In this document: positions 8,022 to 14,076 of the stretch, piece after piece
Position numbering within the stretch: position 1 is the stretch's first letter
Layout of the letters: every line of letters begins with the position of its first letter
Source: Isoptericola jiangsuensis
GTDB lineage: Bacteria > Actinomycetota > Actinomycetes > Actinomycetales > Cellulomonadaceae
DNA length: 64,000 nucleotides
Direction of reading: 5' to 3'
Assembly (NCBI RefSeq): GCF_002563715.1
Contig: NZ_PDJJ01000001.1
Location: 186,001-250,000 of the forward strand
Translations under genes and position numbers: made by a program
Notes under the pieces: generated by a model
Told to the model about the DNA's origin: nothing
The model's input: only the letters and a program-made list of their open reading frames with translations
The model's database searches: none

Positions 8022-9629
8022 TTGACCAGCCCAGACACCATGACCGGCACCCTCGTCCGACCTGACGGCGCAGGAGCCCGGATCGTCGCCGCCACGACCG
8101 CCCTCGTGCTCGCCCTGACGGTGCTCGTCGCACCAGGGGCGCGCGCGACCGACGAGGCGGTGGCGACGACGCTCCACGTCACCCAGCCGTACCCCTGGTA
8201 CGCGACGGCGACCGCGTTCCACGCCCTCGACGTGCAGGTCTCGGCCCAGTCCGGGGAGCAGCCGAGCGGCGGGCGGATCTGGCTCGAGGTGGACGGCGTC
8301 CGCCGGAGCCTCACCGCGGAGTCCGGACGGGTCGTCAACAACACCCTGCTCGATGTCGGTGTCCACCCCGTGACGGTGCGTTACGACGCCCCTCCGGGCT
8401 ACGCGCCGGCCGAGTGGAACGGGACCGTCGAGGTCGTCGACCGGCCGGCGGAGTCGACCCTGACGGCCACCGCGCCGGACGAGGTCGCCTACGGGAGCAG
8501 GTCCTGGGTGACGGTGAGCATCGACGTGCCCGGCCACACGTCGGACGGGACGTTCGAGCTCCGCGACGCGGGCACCGGCGACCTGGTCGCGTCCTCCGTC
8601 CACGACGACGGCGACGACGGTGGGCTGCTCCGCATCCCGACGAGGGGGCGGACGGGGCACCGGGAGTTCGTCGTCCGGTTCGTCAGCCACGCCACGCAGG
8701 CCGAGACGACCGTCTCGACCGAGGTCGCCAAGGCCGTCGAACCGCTGCAGGTGTGGTCGAACAAGCTCGTCGACGGGCGCTGGAGCACCAAGTCCGCCCC
8801 CTGGGACGTCGCCGTGTACGTCCCCGGCTGGGACGAGGCCGTGGCCGGCACCGTGTCGCTGTGGGACGGCGGGCGTCGCCTCCGGTCGCAGCACGTGGCC
8901 GACATGCGGGACCGCGCGGTCGTCTTCGACCTCGGAGCGGGTGACCTCGCCCCGGGTCGGCACACCGTCGAGGTGCGGCTCACCGGCTCGCCGCTGCTGG
9001 CGGACTCCCGCGCGACCCTGGTCGTGGAGGTCACCAGGGACCGGGTCGCCGTGACCTCCTCCGTCGACGGGGACGTGCGCTGGGGGCGGCCCTACTCCCT
9101 GGACCTGCAGCTCCGCGACGCCGAGTTCCGGTGGGAGCCCGCGCCCACCGGGACGGTCTCCGTGTACCGCGGCACGACCCGGCTCTGGAGCGGACGGCTC
9201 GACACGCACGGCGACGCCGTCGCGAAGATCGGCGGGACGAAGATCCGCCCCGGACGCACGACCCTCCGCGTCGTCTACTCCGGTGACACGCTGTACCGGC
9301 CCTCCACCACCTACCGGTCGATCACCGTCCAGAAGGCCCGGACCACGGTGCGCGCCCGCATCGTCGACAGGACGGTCGAGGGGTCGCAACGGGTCAAGGT
9401 CAAGGTCCGCGTGTCCTCGCCCTCGAACATCCCGGACGTCGGCACGCTCCACGTGAAGGTCGACGGCAGGACCGTGAAGACGGTGCGGCTCAAGAAGCAC
9501 CACCAGGGCGCGCGGACCATCACGCTGCCGCGACTGTCTCGTGAGCACCACTGGTTGAAGGTGGTCCTCGCGAAGAGTGCCACGACGAAGTTCGGGACGT
9601 CACCCACCCGGTACTTCCAGGTCCGCTAG
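8022..9629 (+). CDS. Secreted protein with bacterial Ig-like repeats
   Basis: A 535-residue exported protein. TTG 8022 follows GAGGAG by 6 bases, so I prefer it to ATG 8040. The N-terminus has a signal peptide (ALVLALTVLVAPGARA, cleavage near residue 45). The remainder is a string of about four 90-100-residue beta-rich Ig-like modules of the Big_3_5 kind, for example RTTLRVVYSGDTLYRPSTTYRSITVQ. There is no sortase motif or membrane anchor, so it may be free or bound non-covalently to the wall. No catalytic domain is visible; adhesion or scaffolding are reasonable guesses. A collapsed second copy follows. Confidence 0.85.
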   Translation: MTSPDTMTGTLVRPDGAGARIVAATTALVLALTVLVAPGARATDEAVATTLHVTQPYPWYATATAFHALDVQVSAQSGEQPSGGRIWLEVDGVRRSLTAESGRVVNNTLLDVGVHPVTVRYDAPPGYAPAEWNGTVEVVDRPAESTLTATAPDEVAYGSRSWVTVSIDVPGHTSDGTFELRDAGTGDLVASSVHDDGDDGGLLRIPTRGRTGHREFVVRFVSHATQAETTVSTEVAKAVEPLQVWSNKLVDGRWSTKSAPWDVAVYVPGWDEAVAGTVSLWDGGRRLRSQHVADMRDRAVVFDLGAGDLAPGRHTVEVRLTGSPLLADSRATLVVEVTRDRVAVTSSVDGDVRWGRPYSLDLQLRDAEFRWEPAPTGTVSVYRGTTRLWSGRLDTHGDAVAKIGGTKIRPGRTTLRVVYSGDTLYRPSTTYRSITVQKARTTVRARIVDRTVEGSQRVKVKVRVSSPSNIPDVGTLHVKVDGRTVKTVRLKKHHQGARTITLPRLSREHHWLKVVLAKSATTKFGTSPTRYFQVR

Positions 9630-9663
9630 CATCCTCGCGGCCGAGACGAGAGGAACCTCCCTC

Positions 9664-9903
9664 GTGCTCGCCCTCACGGTGCTTGTCGCACCCGGTGCGC
9701 AGGCGACCGACGACGCCCCGCCTGTGACGATCGCCGTCGTCCAGGACGAGACGTGGTGGGAGGGCGGCGGCGAGCGTGGCCTCGCGGCCACCGCCGTCGG
9801 ACCAGACGGTGAACCCGTCACCGGCCACGTGACGGCCGTGCTCGTGGCGACGCCGACGACGAAGAGCGCGAGGTCGCAGGACCGGTACTTCGACGCGTCC
9901 TGA
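9664..9903 (+). pseudogene. Collapsed tandem copy of the Ig-like secreted protein gene
   Basis: Right after the Ig-like gene, a 79-codon frame repeats its signal peptide nearly word for word (LALTVLVAPGAQATDDA against LALTVLVAPGARATDEA). It ends with TTKSARSQDRYFDAS, which mirrors the parent's C-terminus TTKFGTSPTRYFQVR. Only about 40 residues lie between, so almost the whole Ig region is missing. An AGAGGA precedes GTG 9664. This looks like a tandem duplication that lost its middle. A short exported peptide could still be made. Confidence 0.65.
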
Positions 9904-9970
9904 CCCGGTCGCCGGTCGCCGGGGCCTCTCGTAGGGTGGCGAACGGTCAGACCGACGAGGGGAGAGCCCG

Positions 9971-10459
9971 ATGGTCCGATGGTTCCTCAGGGCGGTCGCC
10001 GCCGTCGCGGGGCTGGCGCTCGCGGCGTTCGGCGCGCTCGTCGTGGTGATGCGCACGAAGTGGGAGCCGGGGCTGCGGTTCGTGACCCGCCTGCAACGGC
10101 GGTACGCGCGCAAGGCCGGGCTGCGCCTGGCGGGCCGTCCGGGTGACGTCGCGGTGGTGGTGCACCACGTGGGGCGCCGGTCGGGGCGGTCGTACGCGAC
10201 GCCGGTGACGGTGGAGGAGACGTCGGCGGGGCTGCTGGTGACGCTCCCGTACGGGCCGGGGACGGACTGGGCGCGGAACGTGCTGGCGGCGGACCGGGCG
10301 GTGCTGACGATCGACGGCGAGTCGGTGGAGGTGACCGCACCGCGCGTCATCGGCCTGGACGAGGCCGCGCCGCTGCTGTCCCCGCGGGAGCGGCGGGTGG
10401 CGCGGTTCTTCGGCGCGACGGACTTTTTGCTGCTCCGACCTGCTGATTCATCGGCCTGA
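9971..10459 (+). CDS. Deazaflavin-dependent nitroreductase-family protein
   Basis: A 162-residue protein of the Ddn/F420H2-dependent reductase split beta-barrel family. Diagnostic blocks are VHHVGRRSGRSYATPVTV (about residues 61-78) and GTDWARNVLAADRAVLTIDG (about 97-116), which form the F420-binding pocket. The N-terminus begins with a hydrophobic helix (FLRAVAAVAGLALAAFGALVVVM), suggesting membrane attachment. Such enzymes reduce quinones, nitroaromatics or other acceptors with F420H2. A paralogue lies at 40893-41351. No F420 biosynthesis genes are in the window. Confidence 0.88.
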   Translation: MVRWFLRAVAAVAGLALAAFGALVVVMRTKWEPGLRFVTRLQRRYARKAGLRLAGRPGDVAVVVHHVGRRSGRSYATPVTVEETSAGLLVTLPYGPGTDWARNVLAADRAVLTIDGESVEVTAPRVIGLDEAAPLLSPRERRVARFFGATDFLLLRPADSSA

Positions 10460-10530
10460 CGCAAGTTCCGGCAAAATAAGTCCGGTCGTGGCGGTCACGG
10501 CGCAGGACGGTGCGGACGGAGCAGTGACGG

Positions 10531-10845
10531 GTGGACGACGAGGTGACGCACGGCGGGGTCCGCATCGACCCGGACCGGGCACGCTGGACGATGTGGGGCG
10601 AGGTCGACGCCGCCGTGCAGACGAGGGTCGCACCCGACCTGGCGACGCACCTGCGCGAGACGGCGGACGAGGCCCTGACGGTGGACCTCACGGAGGTCAC
10701 GTTCCTCGACTCGGGCGGCCTGCGCCTGCTGTACGACGCGGCCTCCGCGAAGCCGACGCCGCCGGTGCTGGTGGGGACGCCTCCGAAGGTGCTCGACCTG
10801 CTGAGGCTCAGCGGTGTGGATACGCTGTTCGTCCTGCAGGGCTGA
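10531..10845 (+). CDS. STAS-domain anti-sigma factor antagonist
   Basis: A 104-residue single STAS domain like SpoIIAA/RsbV. The phosphorylatable Ser is Ser61 in VTFLDSGGLRLLYDA, preceded by the strand LTVDLTEV. In partner switching, the unphosphorylated form binds the anti-sigma kinase and frees the sigma factor; the kinase phosphorylates Ser to reset it, and a SpoIIE-type phosphatase reactivates it. GTG 10531 is the start in best context (GGAG upstream). The kinase gene follows 16 bases later and a phosphatase gene is convergent, giving a complete switch apart from the sigma factor. An A-rich patch near 10472-10481 may be the promoter. Confidence 0.92.
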   Translation: MDDEVTHGGVRIDPDRARWTMWGEVDAAVQTRVAPDLATHLRETADEALTVDLTEVTFLDSGGLRLLYDAASAKPTPPVLVGTPPKVLDLLRLSGVDTLFVLQG

Positions 10846-10861
10846 CGGGAAGGACGTGATC

Positions 10862-11311
10862 ATGGCTCCACGACTCGCCACCGCGCCTGCGCCTGCGGAC
10901 TTCGCCGAGGTGCGGTCCTGGCCGTTGCTGACCTTGGAGGACCTGGCGGTGCTGCGCGCCGACCTGGTGGCCTCCCTCCCTCCGTCGCCGGGCGGACGGC
11001 CCAGCCTGGAGGAGATCCCGGAGTCGGTGCTGCTGGTCGCGAGCGAGCTCGCGACGAACGCGTTGCAGCACGGTGAGGGTCCGGTGCTGGTGCGGCTCGC
11101 CGCACGGACGGACGAGTTCCTGCTGGACGTGCAGGACCGCACGCCCGCCGTGGCTCCCCGCATCGACCAGGGCAGCACCCGGGGCGGCGGCGGGTTCGGC
11201 ATGCAGCTGGTCGTCAAGCTGGCCGACGAGGTCGGCTGGTACACGACGCAGGACTCGAAGCACGTGTGGGCCCGGTTCCGGGTGCGGACAAAGGCCCCCG
11301 CCGCAGTGTGA
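10862..11311 (+). CDS. Anti-sigma factor serine kinase (RsbW/SpoIIAB-like HATPase)
   Basis: A 149-residue GHKL-type ATPase domain. The N-box is ESVLLVASELATNALQHG with Asn66, and the G-region is RGGGGFGMQLVVKLADEVG (about residues 108-126). This is the usual form of actinobacterial anti-sigma kinases that both sequester a sigma factor and phosphorylate the STAS partner. ATG 10862 has GGAAGG 8 bases upstream. It is the second gene of a two-gene operon with the STAS antagonist. No sigma factor gene is in the window, so its target must be encoded elsewhere, or the kinase acts on another output. Confidence 0.9.
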   Translation: MAPRLATAPAPADFAEVRSWPLLTLEDLAVLRADLVASLPPSPGGRPSLEEIPESVLLVASELATNALQHGEGPVLVRLAARTDEFLLDVQDRTPAVAPRIDQGSTRGGGGFGMQLVVKLADEVGWYTTQDSKHVWARFRVRTKAPAAV

Positions 11312-11321
11312 GCGTGAACGG

Positions 11322-11343
11322 CCCGCCGCCTCAGGGCGGCGGG
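11322..11343. terminator. Hairpin between anti-sigma kinase and phytochrome genes
   Basis: CCCGCCGCC (11322-11330) pairs perfectly with GGCGGCGGG (11335-11343) across a TCAG loop. The loop contains the complement of the phytochrome gene's stop codon, so this terminator is built into that gene's 3' end and serves both convergent units. Confidence 0.65.
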
Positions 11344-13589
11344 TCGCGCCGGACGACGACGACGGTCGCGTCGTCCGCCGACGACGGCGCGCGGACCTGC
11401 GCGACGAGCGTCGCGGGGTCGACGGACCGGGCTGCGGCAACCCGCAGCCGGTCGAGGGAGTCGACGATGGACTCGTCCCGTCGCTCCACCAGCCCGTCGC
11501 TGAACAGCACGACGGCGCCGCCCGGCGCGACGTGCACCGTGCCGGAGCGGCCGCCGCGCCGCCCGACGCCGAGCGGGGGCTCCCCGAGGACGTCGGCGAC
11601 GCGGGCCCCGTCGGGGCCCACCACGACGGGCGGCGGGTGCCCCGCGGTCACGTAGGTGACGTCGGCGGAGCCGGGCTCGACGGCGGCCAGGACGAGGGTC
11701 GCGGCCTGCCCGGGCAGGGTGGTGCGCAGCAGGTGGTCGACGCGGCCGACGGCCTCGACGATGTCGCCGCCCGCGAGGAGCAGGGCGCGCAGCGCGTTGC
11801 GGAGCTGGCCCATGGTGGCGGCGGCGCCGAGCCCGTGCCCGGACACGTCGCCGACGCTGACGACGACGCGGCCGTCGTCGAGGGCGAGCGCGTCGTACCA
11901 GTCGCCGCCGGCGAGCCCGCCGCCGGACGGCTCGTAGCGGGCCTCGACGGTCCAGCCGTCGACCTGGGGCAGGGACGTGGGCAGGAGGCTGCGCTGCAGC
12001 ACGGTCGCGGCGCGGATGTCGCGGCGCCCGCGCAGCAGCAGGCCCTCGCCGAGGTAGGAGCGCAGGGACGTCGCGACGTCGACCTGCTCCTGGATCCAGG
12101 GTTCGCTGGTGCCGCGCACGACCTCCCGCCAGCGGTCGAACGACTTGCGGGGGGACAGGCGCACCGTGTCGCCCTCGCGGCGGGCGATGGCCTTGTTGTG
12201 CGGGTCGCCGCCCCAGTCGACGGTCTGGAGGACCTCGGCGCGCAGCCACAGGACGGACGCGCCGCCCGGCACCCGGGCCGCGAGCAGGCCGGCGACGCCG
12301 GGCACGATCTCGGCGAGCGCGGGATGGTCGGCGGCGAGCCGGTCCGTGGCCAGCACCTCGACGCCGAGCGCCGCGACGGCGCGGGCGAGCCGCAGGCAGG
12401 TCTCGTCGTCGGGCGTGGTGCCCTGGTGGGCGGTCCGGCCCTCGGCACCGACGAACACGCCGTCGGCGGGCACCAGGTCGAGGAGCCCGGGTTCCCCGGT
12501 GAGCGCGGTGACGAGGGGGACGTCGTCGTCGCGGGTGCCCGCGACGAGACTGGCGAGGACGCCCGCGGACCGGCGCGCGGCCGACGCCCGGTCGTCCTCC
12601 GCCTGCGTGACGAGCCGCACCGACAGCACGGAGCCGAGGAACTCCGCGGCGGTGCGTGCCGCGTACGACGGGGCGTGCGCGCCGGAGTAGTGGTGGCACG
12701 CGATGAGGCCCCAGAGCCGGCCGTCGCGCAGCAGCGAGATCGACATGGACGCGCCGACGCCCATGTTCTGCAGGTACTCGACGTGGATGGGGGACACGCT
12801 GCGCAGCGTGCCGTACGTGAGGTCGAGCGGCTGCCCGGTGACGGGGTCGTCGGTGGGCACGATCGGCACCGGCGTGTAGCCGATGTCGGAGATGAGCCGG
12901 ATCCAGTTCTTCTCGTACAGGGCGCGGGCCTGCGGCGGGATGTCCGACGCCGGGTAGTGCAGGCCGAGGAACGCGTTGAGGTCGGCGCGCTTCGCCTCGG
13001 CGACGACCTCCCCGTTGTAGTCGGCGTCGAAGTGGTACAGCATCACGCGGTCGAACCCGGTGAGCTCGCGGACGCGACGCACGGCGACGTCGTACAGCTC
13101 GGTCATGGAGGTGGCGCGGTCGAGCTCACCGAGGGCGTCGCGGACCGGTTCGTACGTGGAGGTGTACGTGAGGGACGCGTGCCCGGAGAACGGTTCGAGC
13201 TCGACGACGAGCACCGGGGGCCGGTCGGCGGAGTCACCGGGCGCGTGGTGGAGCATCGCCTCGAACCGGGCGGGCTCCCCGTGCACGGGGATCTCGATCT
13301 CGAGCGGGTTGCGCAGGCGCGGGTCGCCGCCGGCGGCGACGTGGTCGAGCACGGTGCGGGCGGCGTCGGCGCCCACGACGGCGTCCAGGGTGGCGCCGAG
13401 CGCGTCGTCGACGGTGACGCCCAGCACGTCGGCGAGGTTCGCCGAGCACTGCGTGACGACGGTGTCGTCGGTGCGCAGCGCCAGCAGCACGCCCCGGGGC
13501 TGCACGAGCCCCGGGATGTGGATGGGCTCGCGCGCGCAGTTGTCCAGGTCGACGGCCTCGCCGGGCGCGAGGAACGCCTGCTCCGCCAT
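11331..13589 (-). CDS. Bacteriophytochrome-SpoIIE phosphatase fusion (PAS-GAF-PHY-PP2C)
   Basis: A 752-residue soluble photoreceptor-phosphatase. Residues 14-32 (DLDNCAREPIHIPGLVQPR) carry the bilin-attachment Cys18 of the PAS domain. The GAF domain (about 150-325) has HYPASDIP with Asp216, SPIHVEYLQNMG with His269 and ACHH with His299, matching the chromophore-pocket Asp207/His260/His290 of the Deinococcus phytochrome at a constant offset of 9. The PHY tongue shows WGG (459-461) and PRKSF (480-484). Instead of a histidine kinase, residues about 525-750 form a PP2C/SpoIIE phosphatase with GGDWYD (561-566), GDVSGHG (580-586), LFSDGLVERRDE and DDATVVVV. The likely substrate is the phospho-STAS antagonist encoded by the convergent operon. 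AGGAGGG precedes the ATG. No haem oxygenase gene for biliverdin is in the window. Confidence 0.95.
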   Translation of the reverse strand: MAEQAFLAPGEAVDLDNCAREPIHIPGLVQPRGVLLALRTDDTVVTQCSANLADVLGVTVDDALGATLDAVVGADAARTVLDHVAAGGDPRLRNPLEIEIPVHGEPARFEAMLHHAPGDSADRPPVLVVELEPFSGHASLTYTSTYEPVRDALGELDRATSMTELYDVAVRRVRELTGFDRVMLYHFDADYNGEVVAEAKRADLNAFLGLHYPASDIPPQARALYEKNWIRLISDIGYTPVPIVPTDDPVTGQPLDLTYGTLRSVSPIHVEYLQNMGVGASMSISLLRDGRLWGLIACHHYSGAHAPSYAARTAAEFLGSVLSVRLVTQAEDDRASAARRSAGVLASLVAGTRDDDVPLVTALTGEPGLLDLVPADGVFVGAEGRTAHQGTTPDDETCLRLARAVAALGVEVLATDRLAADHPALAEIVPGVAGLLAARVPGGASVLWLRAEVLQTVDWGGDPHNKAIARREGDTVRLSPRKSFDRWREVVRGTSEPWIQEQVDVATSLRSYLGEGLLLRGRRDIRAATVLQRSLLPTSLPQVDGWTVEARYEPSGGGLAGGDWYDALALDDGRVVVSVGDVSGHGLGAAATMGQLRNALRALLLAGGDIVEAVGRVDHLLRTTLPGQAATLVLAAVEPGSADVTYVTAGHPPPVVVGPDGARVADVLGEPPLGVGRRGGRSGTVHVAPGGAVVLFSDGLVERRDESIVDSLDRLRVAAARSVDPATLVAQVRAPSSADDATVVVVRRDPPP

Positions 13590-13668
13590 CAGGCCCTCCT
13601 GGTCGTGGGTGCGATCGGTGAAGAATAACGTTTCGACCCCGGGATCTGCCTGTCGTTACGGTGTCACG

Positions 13669-14076
13669 GTGACGACGAGCGAACAGGTCAGGCGGGTCCG
13701 GCAAGTGCAGGTCACGTTCGACTGCGCGGACCCGGTGCGGGTCGCGCGGTTCTGGTGCGCGACGCTCGGGTACGACCCGACGCTGCCGGACGAGGACGAC
13801 GGCGCGTGGGCCGTGGCCGAGGACCCGACGGGCGCCGGTCCGCGCCTCTACTTCCAGCGTGTCCCGGAGGGGAAGGTCGTCAAGAACCGCGTGCACCTCG
13901 ACGTGCGCGCCGGGACCGGCCTCGTGGGGGACGAGCGGGTCGCCGTCCTGGAGGCCGAGGGCGCGCGGCTCGTGGCGCTCGGCGCGACACGGCTGCACAT
14001 CCTCCTCGCCGACGACGAGAACGAGTCCTGCCTCGTCATGCAGGACGTCGAGGGCAACGAGTTCTGCCTCGACTGA
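13669..14076 (+). CDS. VOC (glyoxalase-like) family protein
   Basis: A 135-residue single-chain vicinal-oxygen-chelate protein with two beta-alpha-beta-beta-beta units. VQVTFDCADPVRVARFWCATLGYD opens the first and NRVHLDVRAGTG the second, ending in MQDVEGNEFCLD with the usual EFC metal-side strand. It belongs to the actinobacterial glyoxalase-like domain proteins of unknown substrate. GTG 13669 places the start correctly before the first strand. It is divergent from the phytochrome gene, 79 bases away, so the two may share a control region. Confidence 0.88.
   Translation: MTTSEQVRRVRQVQVTFDCADPVRVARFWCATLGYDPTLPDEDDGAWAVAEDPTGAGPRLYFQRVPEGKVVKNRVHLDVRAGTGLVGDERVAVLEAEGARLVALGATRLHILLADDENESCLVMQDVEGNEFCLD

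Follow-up and report, generated by a model that had tools for sequence, protein, structure and literature searches.

A phytochrome-phosphatase fusion linked to a STAS-kinase pair in Isoptericola jiangsuensis: a probable light-gated partner switch in a family without SigB/F/G-type matches

In a 64,000-nucleotide stretch of the Isoptericola jiangsuensis genome (contig NZ_PDJJ01000001.1, positions 186,001 to 250,000; hereafter the window), a phytochrome is fused to a SpoIIE-type PPM phosphatase and faces a gene pair encoding a STAS-domain protein and a HATPase_c_2 kinase. These proteins probably form a red/far-red-gated partner switch in which the phosphatase acts on the neighbouring STAS protein, and whose client is not a sigma factor of the SigB/F/G type. 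Gene linkage, a photosensor with a phosphatase output and a haem oxygenase in the genome partly support the interpretation given in an initial annotation of this DNA; we infer bilin binding, photoswitching, the specificity of the phosphatase for its substrate and the nature of the client.

Results

Organization of the locus

The genome (G000) is complete, a single contig of 4.04 Mb. The features of the locus, in window coordinates, are:

10531..10845, + strand: STAS-domain protein, the predicted substrate; 104 residues, GTG start; Pfam STAS_2 and STAS
10862..11311, + strand: HATPase_c_2 kinase, RsbW/SpoIIAB-like; 149 residues, ATG start; Pfam HATPase_c_2 and HATPase_c
11331..13589, - strand: phytochrome-PPM phosphatase fusion; 752 residues; Pfam PAS_2, GAF, PHY and SpoIIE, PDB relatives, AlphaFold2
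12048..13538, - strand: photosensory module PAS-GAF-PHY, residues 18-514; Cys18 codon at 13536-13538; Pfam, PDB relatives
11985..12092, - strand: continuous signalling helix from PHY towards the phosphatase, residues 500-535; AlphaFold2
11343..11984, - strand: SpoIIE/PPM phosphatase domain, about residues 536-749, with D563, D581, D698 and D740
11319..11346, no strand: GC-rich hairpin across the stop codon of the phytochrome, where the two convergent genes meet; might terminate transcription both ways

The Pfam domains and gene positions bear out the initial annotation in its description of a phytochrome-SpoIIE fusion facing a STAS/kinase operon. Its placing of the STAS protein nineteen bases from the fusion holds in part: the 19-base gap exists (11312-11330), tail to tail between the kinase and phytochrome stop codons, and the STAS gene itself lies 485 bases from the phytochrome gene. 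Since the fusion and the pair are convergent, they share no promoter. The kinase most likely starts at the ATG at 10862 rather than at a GTG at 10814 within the STAS gene; its Pfam scan used the longer frame, 10814-11311.

The photosensory module

Pfam finds PAS_2, GAF, PHY and SpoIIE in the fusion in that order, each over its own cut-off. Residues 6-515 have relatives in the PDB, and the fold search matches agree. A cysteine before the PAS domain, the aspartate of PASDIP, two histidines and the PRxSF tongue are the defining residues of a bacteriophytochrome photosensory module. Their counterparts here are Cys18, Asp216 (of PASDIP), His269, His299 and PRKSF (480-484), all at the positions given by the initial annotation, as is Ser61 of the STAS protein. 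The first four, together with the tongue residues P, R, S and F, are kept in all 81 phytochromes of a set made up of the window protein and the best 80 of 240 relatives found, nearest first. Against the NCBIfam BphP equivalog NF041576 the fusion scores 361.3 bits (residues 11-513), under the curated cut-off of 1040. The AlphaFold2 model has a mean predicted local distance difference test score of 84.8, with low confidence in the tongue region; structure prediction and fold search confirm what was already apparent from the sequence.

Linker and phosphatase domain

Residues 500-535 are predicted to form one helix. The spacing from PRxSF to GGDWYD is 81 residues in 80 of the 81 sequences in the above set, and residues 484-561 carry no insertion or deletion in any of the 73 fusion genomes, window included, from a family survey (an even draw of 150 genomes). 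This gapless linker fits a proposal in PMC12143880, a text that does not use the word phytochrome, that helical linkers carry signals into PPM phosphatase dimers by coiled-coil control.

The SpoIIE match scores 130.7 bits over residues 571-748 (cut-off 25). The PPM aspartates D563, D581, D698 and D740, which we take to include the metal ligands, are kept in 81/81 of the nearest-relative set and in 73/73 family genomes. The phosphatase has PDB relatives over residues 538-711, and the nearest solved one is Rv1364c (PDB 3ke6; E 1.8e-29).

The STAS protein and its kinase

The STAS protein matches Pfam STAS_2 with 40.4 bits (cut-off 29.2), and its profile hits PDB chains of SpoIIAA, RsbV and RsfB. 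The codon of Ser61 (10711-10713) lies within a DSGG motif, of which D60, S61 and G63 are invariant in 19/19 aligned sequences, the window's included. The kinase scores 36.6 bits with HATPase_c_2 (cut-off 27.4); E62 and N66 (the N-box Glu and Asn), D92, and G110, G111 and G113 of the glycine box are invariant in 20/20 aligned sequences, again counting that of the window.

Genomic linkage of fusion, STAS protein and kinase

A near full-length fusion occurs in 73 of the 150 family genomes and a kinase of the module's type (115 bits or more) in 78, both being present in 65. In 43 of the 73 fusion genomes, kinase and fusion lie no more than 5 kb apart, tail to tail in 37 and on the same strand in 6. 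This linkage exceeds chance, which by our own estimate is about 1-2% per genome; the p values of the comparison carry the same caution about kinship as the Fisher test given below for the blind forms. The counts rest on the 73 near full-length fusions, 138 kinase matches at 115 bits or more and 111 haem-oxygenase genomes. Weaker kinase matches (73.7 bits and below) were left out, as were fusion matches that were cut or split or stopped short of the phosphatase (G008, G084, G125, G129, G136).

Among 35 named cellulomonad-type loci, which include Georgenia and Sanguibacter and some of which end short, 20 have orthologues of both the STAS protein and the kinase within 5 kb of the fusion, in several arrangements. 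Across the 80 named loci, where the genes are linked, the usual order is convergent; STAS and kinase genes are divergent in L062, L074 and L081, and in L071 all three genes are on one strand. The L071 fusion is flanked by two kinases of the module's type, with a STAS gene before the first. In L087 (5863-6594), a kinase and a STAS protein of the module's type are fused into a 243-residue protein 3.4 kb upstream of the phytochrome. Gene calls in the fetched loci are incomplete, with spurious frames in places (e.g. L066, L190).

Of the nine geodermatophilid loci, two match the kinase profile only, and more weakly. A different STAS protein lies divergent and within 250 bases upstream of the fusion in 9/36 mycobacterial loci (L083, L086, L089, L091, L094, L099, L103, L105, L123) and 2.2 kb downstream in a tenth. 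Haem oxygenase lies within 360 bases of the fusion in 10/36 mycobacterial loci, other than the nine STAS-bearing ones. Pfam confirmed one mycobacterial neighbour of each kind. Taken with the cellulomonad-type neighbourhoods, these indicate that STAS or chromophore genes accompany the fusion in more than one lineage.

A conserved third gene that would name the client was also sought, by clustering the neighbourhoods and by visual inspection of the fetched loci, but neither approach showed a cluster recurring between genera.

The hairpin between the convergent genes (11319-11346) has 12-nucleotide arms that are 92% complementary and has no T-run. Its fold z-score is -2.57, with 3/200 shuffles as good, and it may be a two-way terminator. 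As a conserved feature it was rejected: at the same scan setting, the gaps of eight relatives gave one clean hairpin (L194, 8 nucleotides), a palindrome (L064) and nothing in the other six. A promoter scan of 10380-13860 gave no sigma-70-type site and a single terminator-like match inside the phytochrome coding sequence; with DNA of this GC content such a scan is uninformative.

Haem oxygenase

The genome has a single haem oxygenase gene (PF01126; 3872557-3873156, - strand; 201.1 bits, E 3.4e-59), the enzyme for which the initial annotation had called for a search. Along the contig, 3.67 Mb separate it from the fusion; on a circular chromosome the shorter way round would be about 0.37 Mb. Haem oxygenase is found in 67/73 fusion genomes vs 44/77 other family genomes. 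All four of Cys18, D216, H269 and H299 are present in 68 of the 73 fusion genomes, and 66 of these 68 have the enzyme. Its gene lies less than 200 bases from the fusion in G049, G121, G029 and G140, among the 11 positions compared out of 111.

Blind and PHY-only relatives

In five family genomes (G002, G079, G098, G127, G131) the fusion is blind in that Cys18, R231, S266, H269 and P480 are replaced. The four PPM aspartates are intact in all five, and a kinase match still lies tail to tail with the fusion, 17-34 bases away; a STAS gene is called beside three of them (L182, L183, L184). PF01126 is absent from 4/5 blind-fusion genomes vs 2/68 intact-sensor genomes (Fisher p 7e-5, ignoring kinship). 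Four of the five blind forms belong to one genus and the forms may stem from one or two events; since such events are few, related and grouped in the phosphatase tree, statistics on them mean little. Compared with the window protein, the blind forms have 39% identity in PAS-GAF and 53% in the phosphatase, whereas in 30 linked intact forms whose phosphatase has diverged to a similar degree (52% on average) the PAS-GAF identity averages 65%. The much greater divergence of the blind PAS-GAF suggests that the intact branch is under constraint.

Proteins with PHY only and the same phosphatase type occur in three genomes: G003 (L178, L179) and G018 (L180), as judged by Pfam, and G027 (L181), by our own profile only. 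STAS and kinase genes adjoin L178 and L181, a kinase lies about 0.5 kb from L180, and neither was seen alongside L179. An intact fusion is also carried elsewhere in G003 and G027.

A quick tree of the phosphatase domain places the blind and PHY-only forms inside a branch of cassette-bearing forms. The tree has no bootstrap, its long branches are flagged, and it omits three of every four mycobacterial rows among L083-L121. We read this as loss of light sensing with retention of the cassette. Because they keep adjacent partners, the phosphatase, STAS protein and kinase look like the unit.

Genes of sugar-metabolism type occur in the same stretches as the blind fusions (L182, L183, L184, L185, L188): Gfo/Idh/MocA in L184 and L188, an aldolase-dehydrogenase in L183, and a xylose-isomerase-like gene in L182 and, by sequence start, in L185. 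The sensor of these forms may therefore now read a metabolite. A mannonate-dehydratase-like gene adjoins the PHY-only fusions L178 and L180 (by Pfam) and L181 (by sequence start). A paralogous kinase of the module's type, without a phytochrome, is located elsewhere in the I. jiangsuensis genome (708651-709145; L141, 4652-5146), and shares its stretch with sugar genes of the kinds found beside blind forms of sister species.

Sigma factors

According to the initial annotation, dephosphorylation of the antagonist controls an alternative sigma factor, with neither that factor nor a haem oxygenase in the window. The window indeed has no Sigma70_r2 or haem-oxygenase match. The proposed output, in a SigB/SigF sense, is not supported: in the complete genome nothing exceeds the cut-off of the SigB/F/G model TIGR02980 (234.35 bits), the best match, taken to be the primary sigma factor, scoring 133.8 bits and the next 25. 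None of the 150 family genomes has a match over the cut-off. The highest scores, 213-221 bits, come from three genomes of a single genus that lack the fusion, and no other family genome exceeds 134; two Georgenia-type genomes also gave no match over the cut-off. As a positive control, the model scores 296 bits or more in 11/11 mycobacterial and geodermatophilid fusion genomes tested. Across the order, 65/248 genomes have a match at E 1e-55 or better, 43 of them over the cut-off. The family and order profile surveys scored only the best candidates in many genomes, and a rare miss is possible.

The genome has 16 Sigma70_r2 matches, of which only one also hits the SigB/F/G model above 26 bits. 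At 3830036-3834343, a GAF-GAF-SpoIIE-HATPase_c_2 protein (L134, 6037-9315, + strand) is followed 42 bases on by an extracytoplasmic function (ECF) sigma factor of TIGR02960 type with a SnoaL-like tail (9358-10344, + strand); the two may form a partner switch acting on the ECF sigma factor. RsbR-like, RsbT-like and HATPase-SpoIIE genes stand in a row at 3708395-3711067 (L135, 6396-9068), which gives this genome, with no SigB match, a stressosome-like gene set.

Discussion

Proposed mechanism

In the mechanism we propose, biliverdin made by the genome's haem oxygenase would attach to Cys18, and photoconversion would change the tongue and helix 500-535. The helix would then set the PPM switch element and the dimer, and hence the activity of the phosphatase. 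The kinase would phosphorylate Ser61 of the neighbouring STAS protein and the phosphatase strip that phosphate; the unphosphorylated STAS protein would bind the kinase, causing it to release its client. The opening two steps, from light through phytochrome and helix to the PPM switch, draw on general knowledge of phytochromes and on work on PPM phosphatases (PMC8080068 and PMC11418112). The client is not expected to be of SigB/SigF/SigG type, because none was found in the lineage; the likeliest alternatives are an ECF sigma factor, or an effector of the STAS protein's own.

More broadly, we put at about even the chance that selection has kept a light-gated switch in a family without SigB/F/G-type factors, so that the cassette has a new client, and that the cassette is portable, having been kept in sister lineages where the photosensor was blinded and, in most, haem oxygenase lost.

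Several observations weigh against a light-gated switch of these three proteins. The kinase profile found no relative at E 0.01 among solved chains, RsbW and SpoIIAB included. Both the STAS protein and the kinase fall under NCBIfam cut-offs (35 bits against 53.45 of TIGR00377 for the former). The genome has eight SpoIIE matches (seven over the cut-off) and 27 HATPase_c_2 matches (11 over the cut-off), the module's own included, which leaves room for cross-talk. Since haem oxygenase has a role in iron supply as well, its presence only permits a chromophore; the two intact-sensor genomes with no match to it are both drafts (G142, G147). In 30 of the 73 fusion genomes no kinase of the module's type lies within 5 kb (four have one 5.3-7.6 kb away), so an adjacent kinase cannot be the partner in every case. 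In 36 mycobacterial loci, neither the module's kinase type nor an orthologous STAS-kinase pair lies within 5 kb.

Alternative explanations

The strongest alternative, although we think it doubtful, is that the kinase holds an ECF sigma factor that light frees, in which case the sigma output first proposed would be right in kind. It would suit a genome whose 16 Sigma70_r2 proteins include just one that hits the SigB/F/G model above 26 bits, and in which a GAF-GAF-SpoIIE-HATPase_c_2 protein directly precedes an ECF gene. However, that protein carries its own fused kinase domain, the window has no sigma factor, and no cluster beyond STAS and kinase recurs across genera; moreover, the ECF classification covers 1/15 of the other Sigma70_r2 proteins.

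That the phosphatase escapes light control in the cell, the sensor being bilin-free or a ligand sensor with light incidental, is unlikely. The blind relatives have Cys18, R231, S266, H269 and P480 replaced and keep the phosphatase residues, and PHY-only forms occur, as such a role would allow. Against this stand the four photosensory residues kept in 68/73 genomes, almost always with haem oxygenase, and the low PAS-GAF identity of the blind forms relative to the intact ones, which suggests constraint on the latter.

Slightly less credible still is a STAS-kinase pair that is a bystander, with the phosphatase acting on another STAS protein of the genome. There are other STAS and SpoIIE genes to choose from, one STAS protein being encoded at 461.3-461.6 kb (L136, 7256-7633), and the linkage is missing in 30/73 genomes, but where present it outlasts inversions, changes of gene order and the loss of photosensor residues. 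Control of cyclic-di-GMP by the STAS protein is very improbable: the model would be SiaABC, whose PP2C-kinase-SiaC partner switch acts together with the diguanylate cyclase SiaD (PMC7647112), but the genome's single GGDEF match (3297444-3297899) lies about 3.1 Mb from the module by contig coordinates, and nothing observed ties it to the module. A red/far-red-gated switch on the neighbouring STAS protein is the reading we retain.

Significance and comparison with known systems

Phytochromes have mostly been studied as histidine kinases or cyclases. The locus offers what is probably a red-light-controlled Ser/Thr phosphatase beside its likely substrate and kinase, a compact system in which to follow photoconversion across a helix into a PPM switch, and the phytochrome-phosphatase is a possible optogenetic part. 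The missing SigB/F/G factor turns the target of the switch into a directly testable question, with the blind sister proteins as natural controls. Phytochromes with SpoIIE/PPM output are named in the legend of Fig. 2 of PMC9587094. The initial annotation called such a circuit little studied, which fits the open-access literature, where our searches turned up no paper treating the STAS-kinase linkage, the blind branch or the absence of the sigma factor (subscription journals lie mostly outside this coverage). The parts are thus familiar; as far as we have seen, the linkage of sensor and cassette and the lack of a SigB/F/G client are new.

Light-sensing relatives differ in chemistry or output. 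Bacteriophytochromes with a histidine kinase or the PadC diguanylate cyclase as output share PAS-GAF-PHY and a signalling helix with the fusion, which instead ends in a Ser/Thr phosphatase and is linked to a STAS-kinase pair. Blue-light LOV and BLUF sensors have been tied to SpoIIE or STAS partners (PMC4844311), and a Saccharothrix photocobilin is predicted to interact with STAS and SpoIIE proteins (PMC10979010); the former are flavin sensors and the latter a B12-bilin sensor whose interaction is predicted only, unlike the PAS-GAF-PHY fusion described here. The SiaABCD system is likewise a partner switch, with a diguanylate cyclase downstream instead of a sigma factor (PMC7647112). It has a threonine phosphosite and no photosensor where the module has Ser61 and a phytochrome.

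Among sigma-controlling systems, PMC12143880 describes Rv1364c as a PAS-phosphatase with fused anti-sigma and anti-anti-sigma domains. By domain description it has the same three activities as the module, and its phosphatase is the closest solved one; unlike Rv1364c, which is one polypeptide with a PAS sensor, the module comprises three proteins and a phytochrome sensor, in a genome without a SigB/F/G match over the cut-off. With the Bacillus RsbU/RsbP-RsbV-RsbW systems, as presented in the same text, it shares a PPM phosphatase, a STAS antagonist with a conserved serine, a HATPase kinase and a helical linker into the phosphatase. It differs from them in that neither the genome nor the gene neighbourhood holds a sigma factor of SigB type, and in that what is probably a red-light sensor takes the place of the RsbT binding or PAS domain of RsbU and RsbP.

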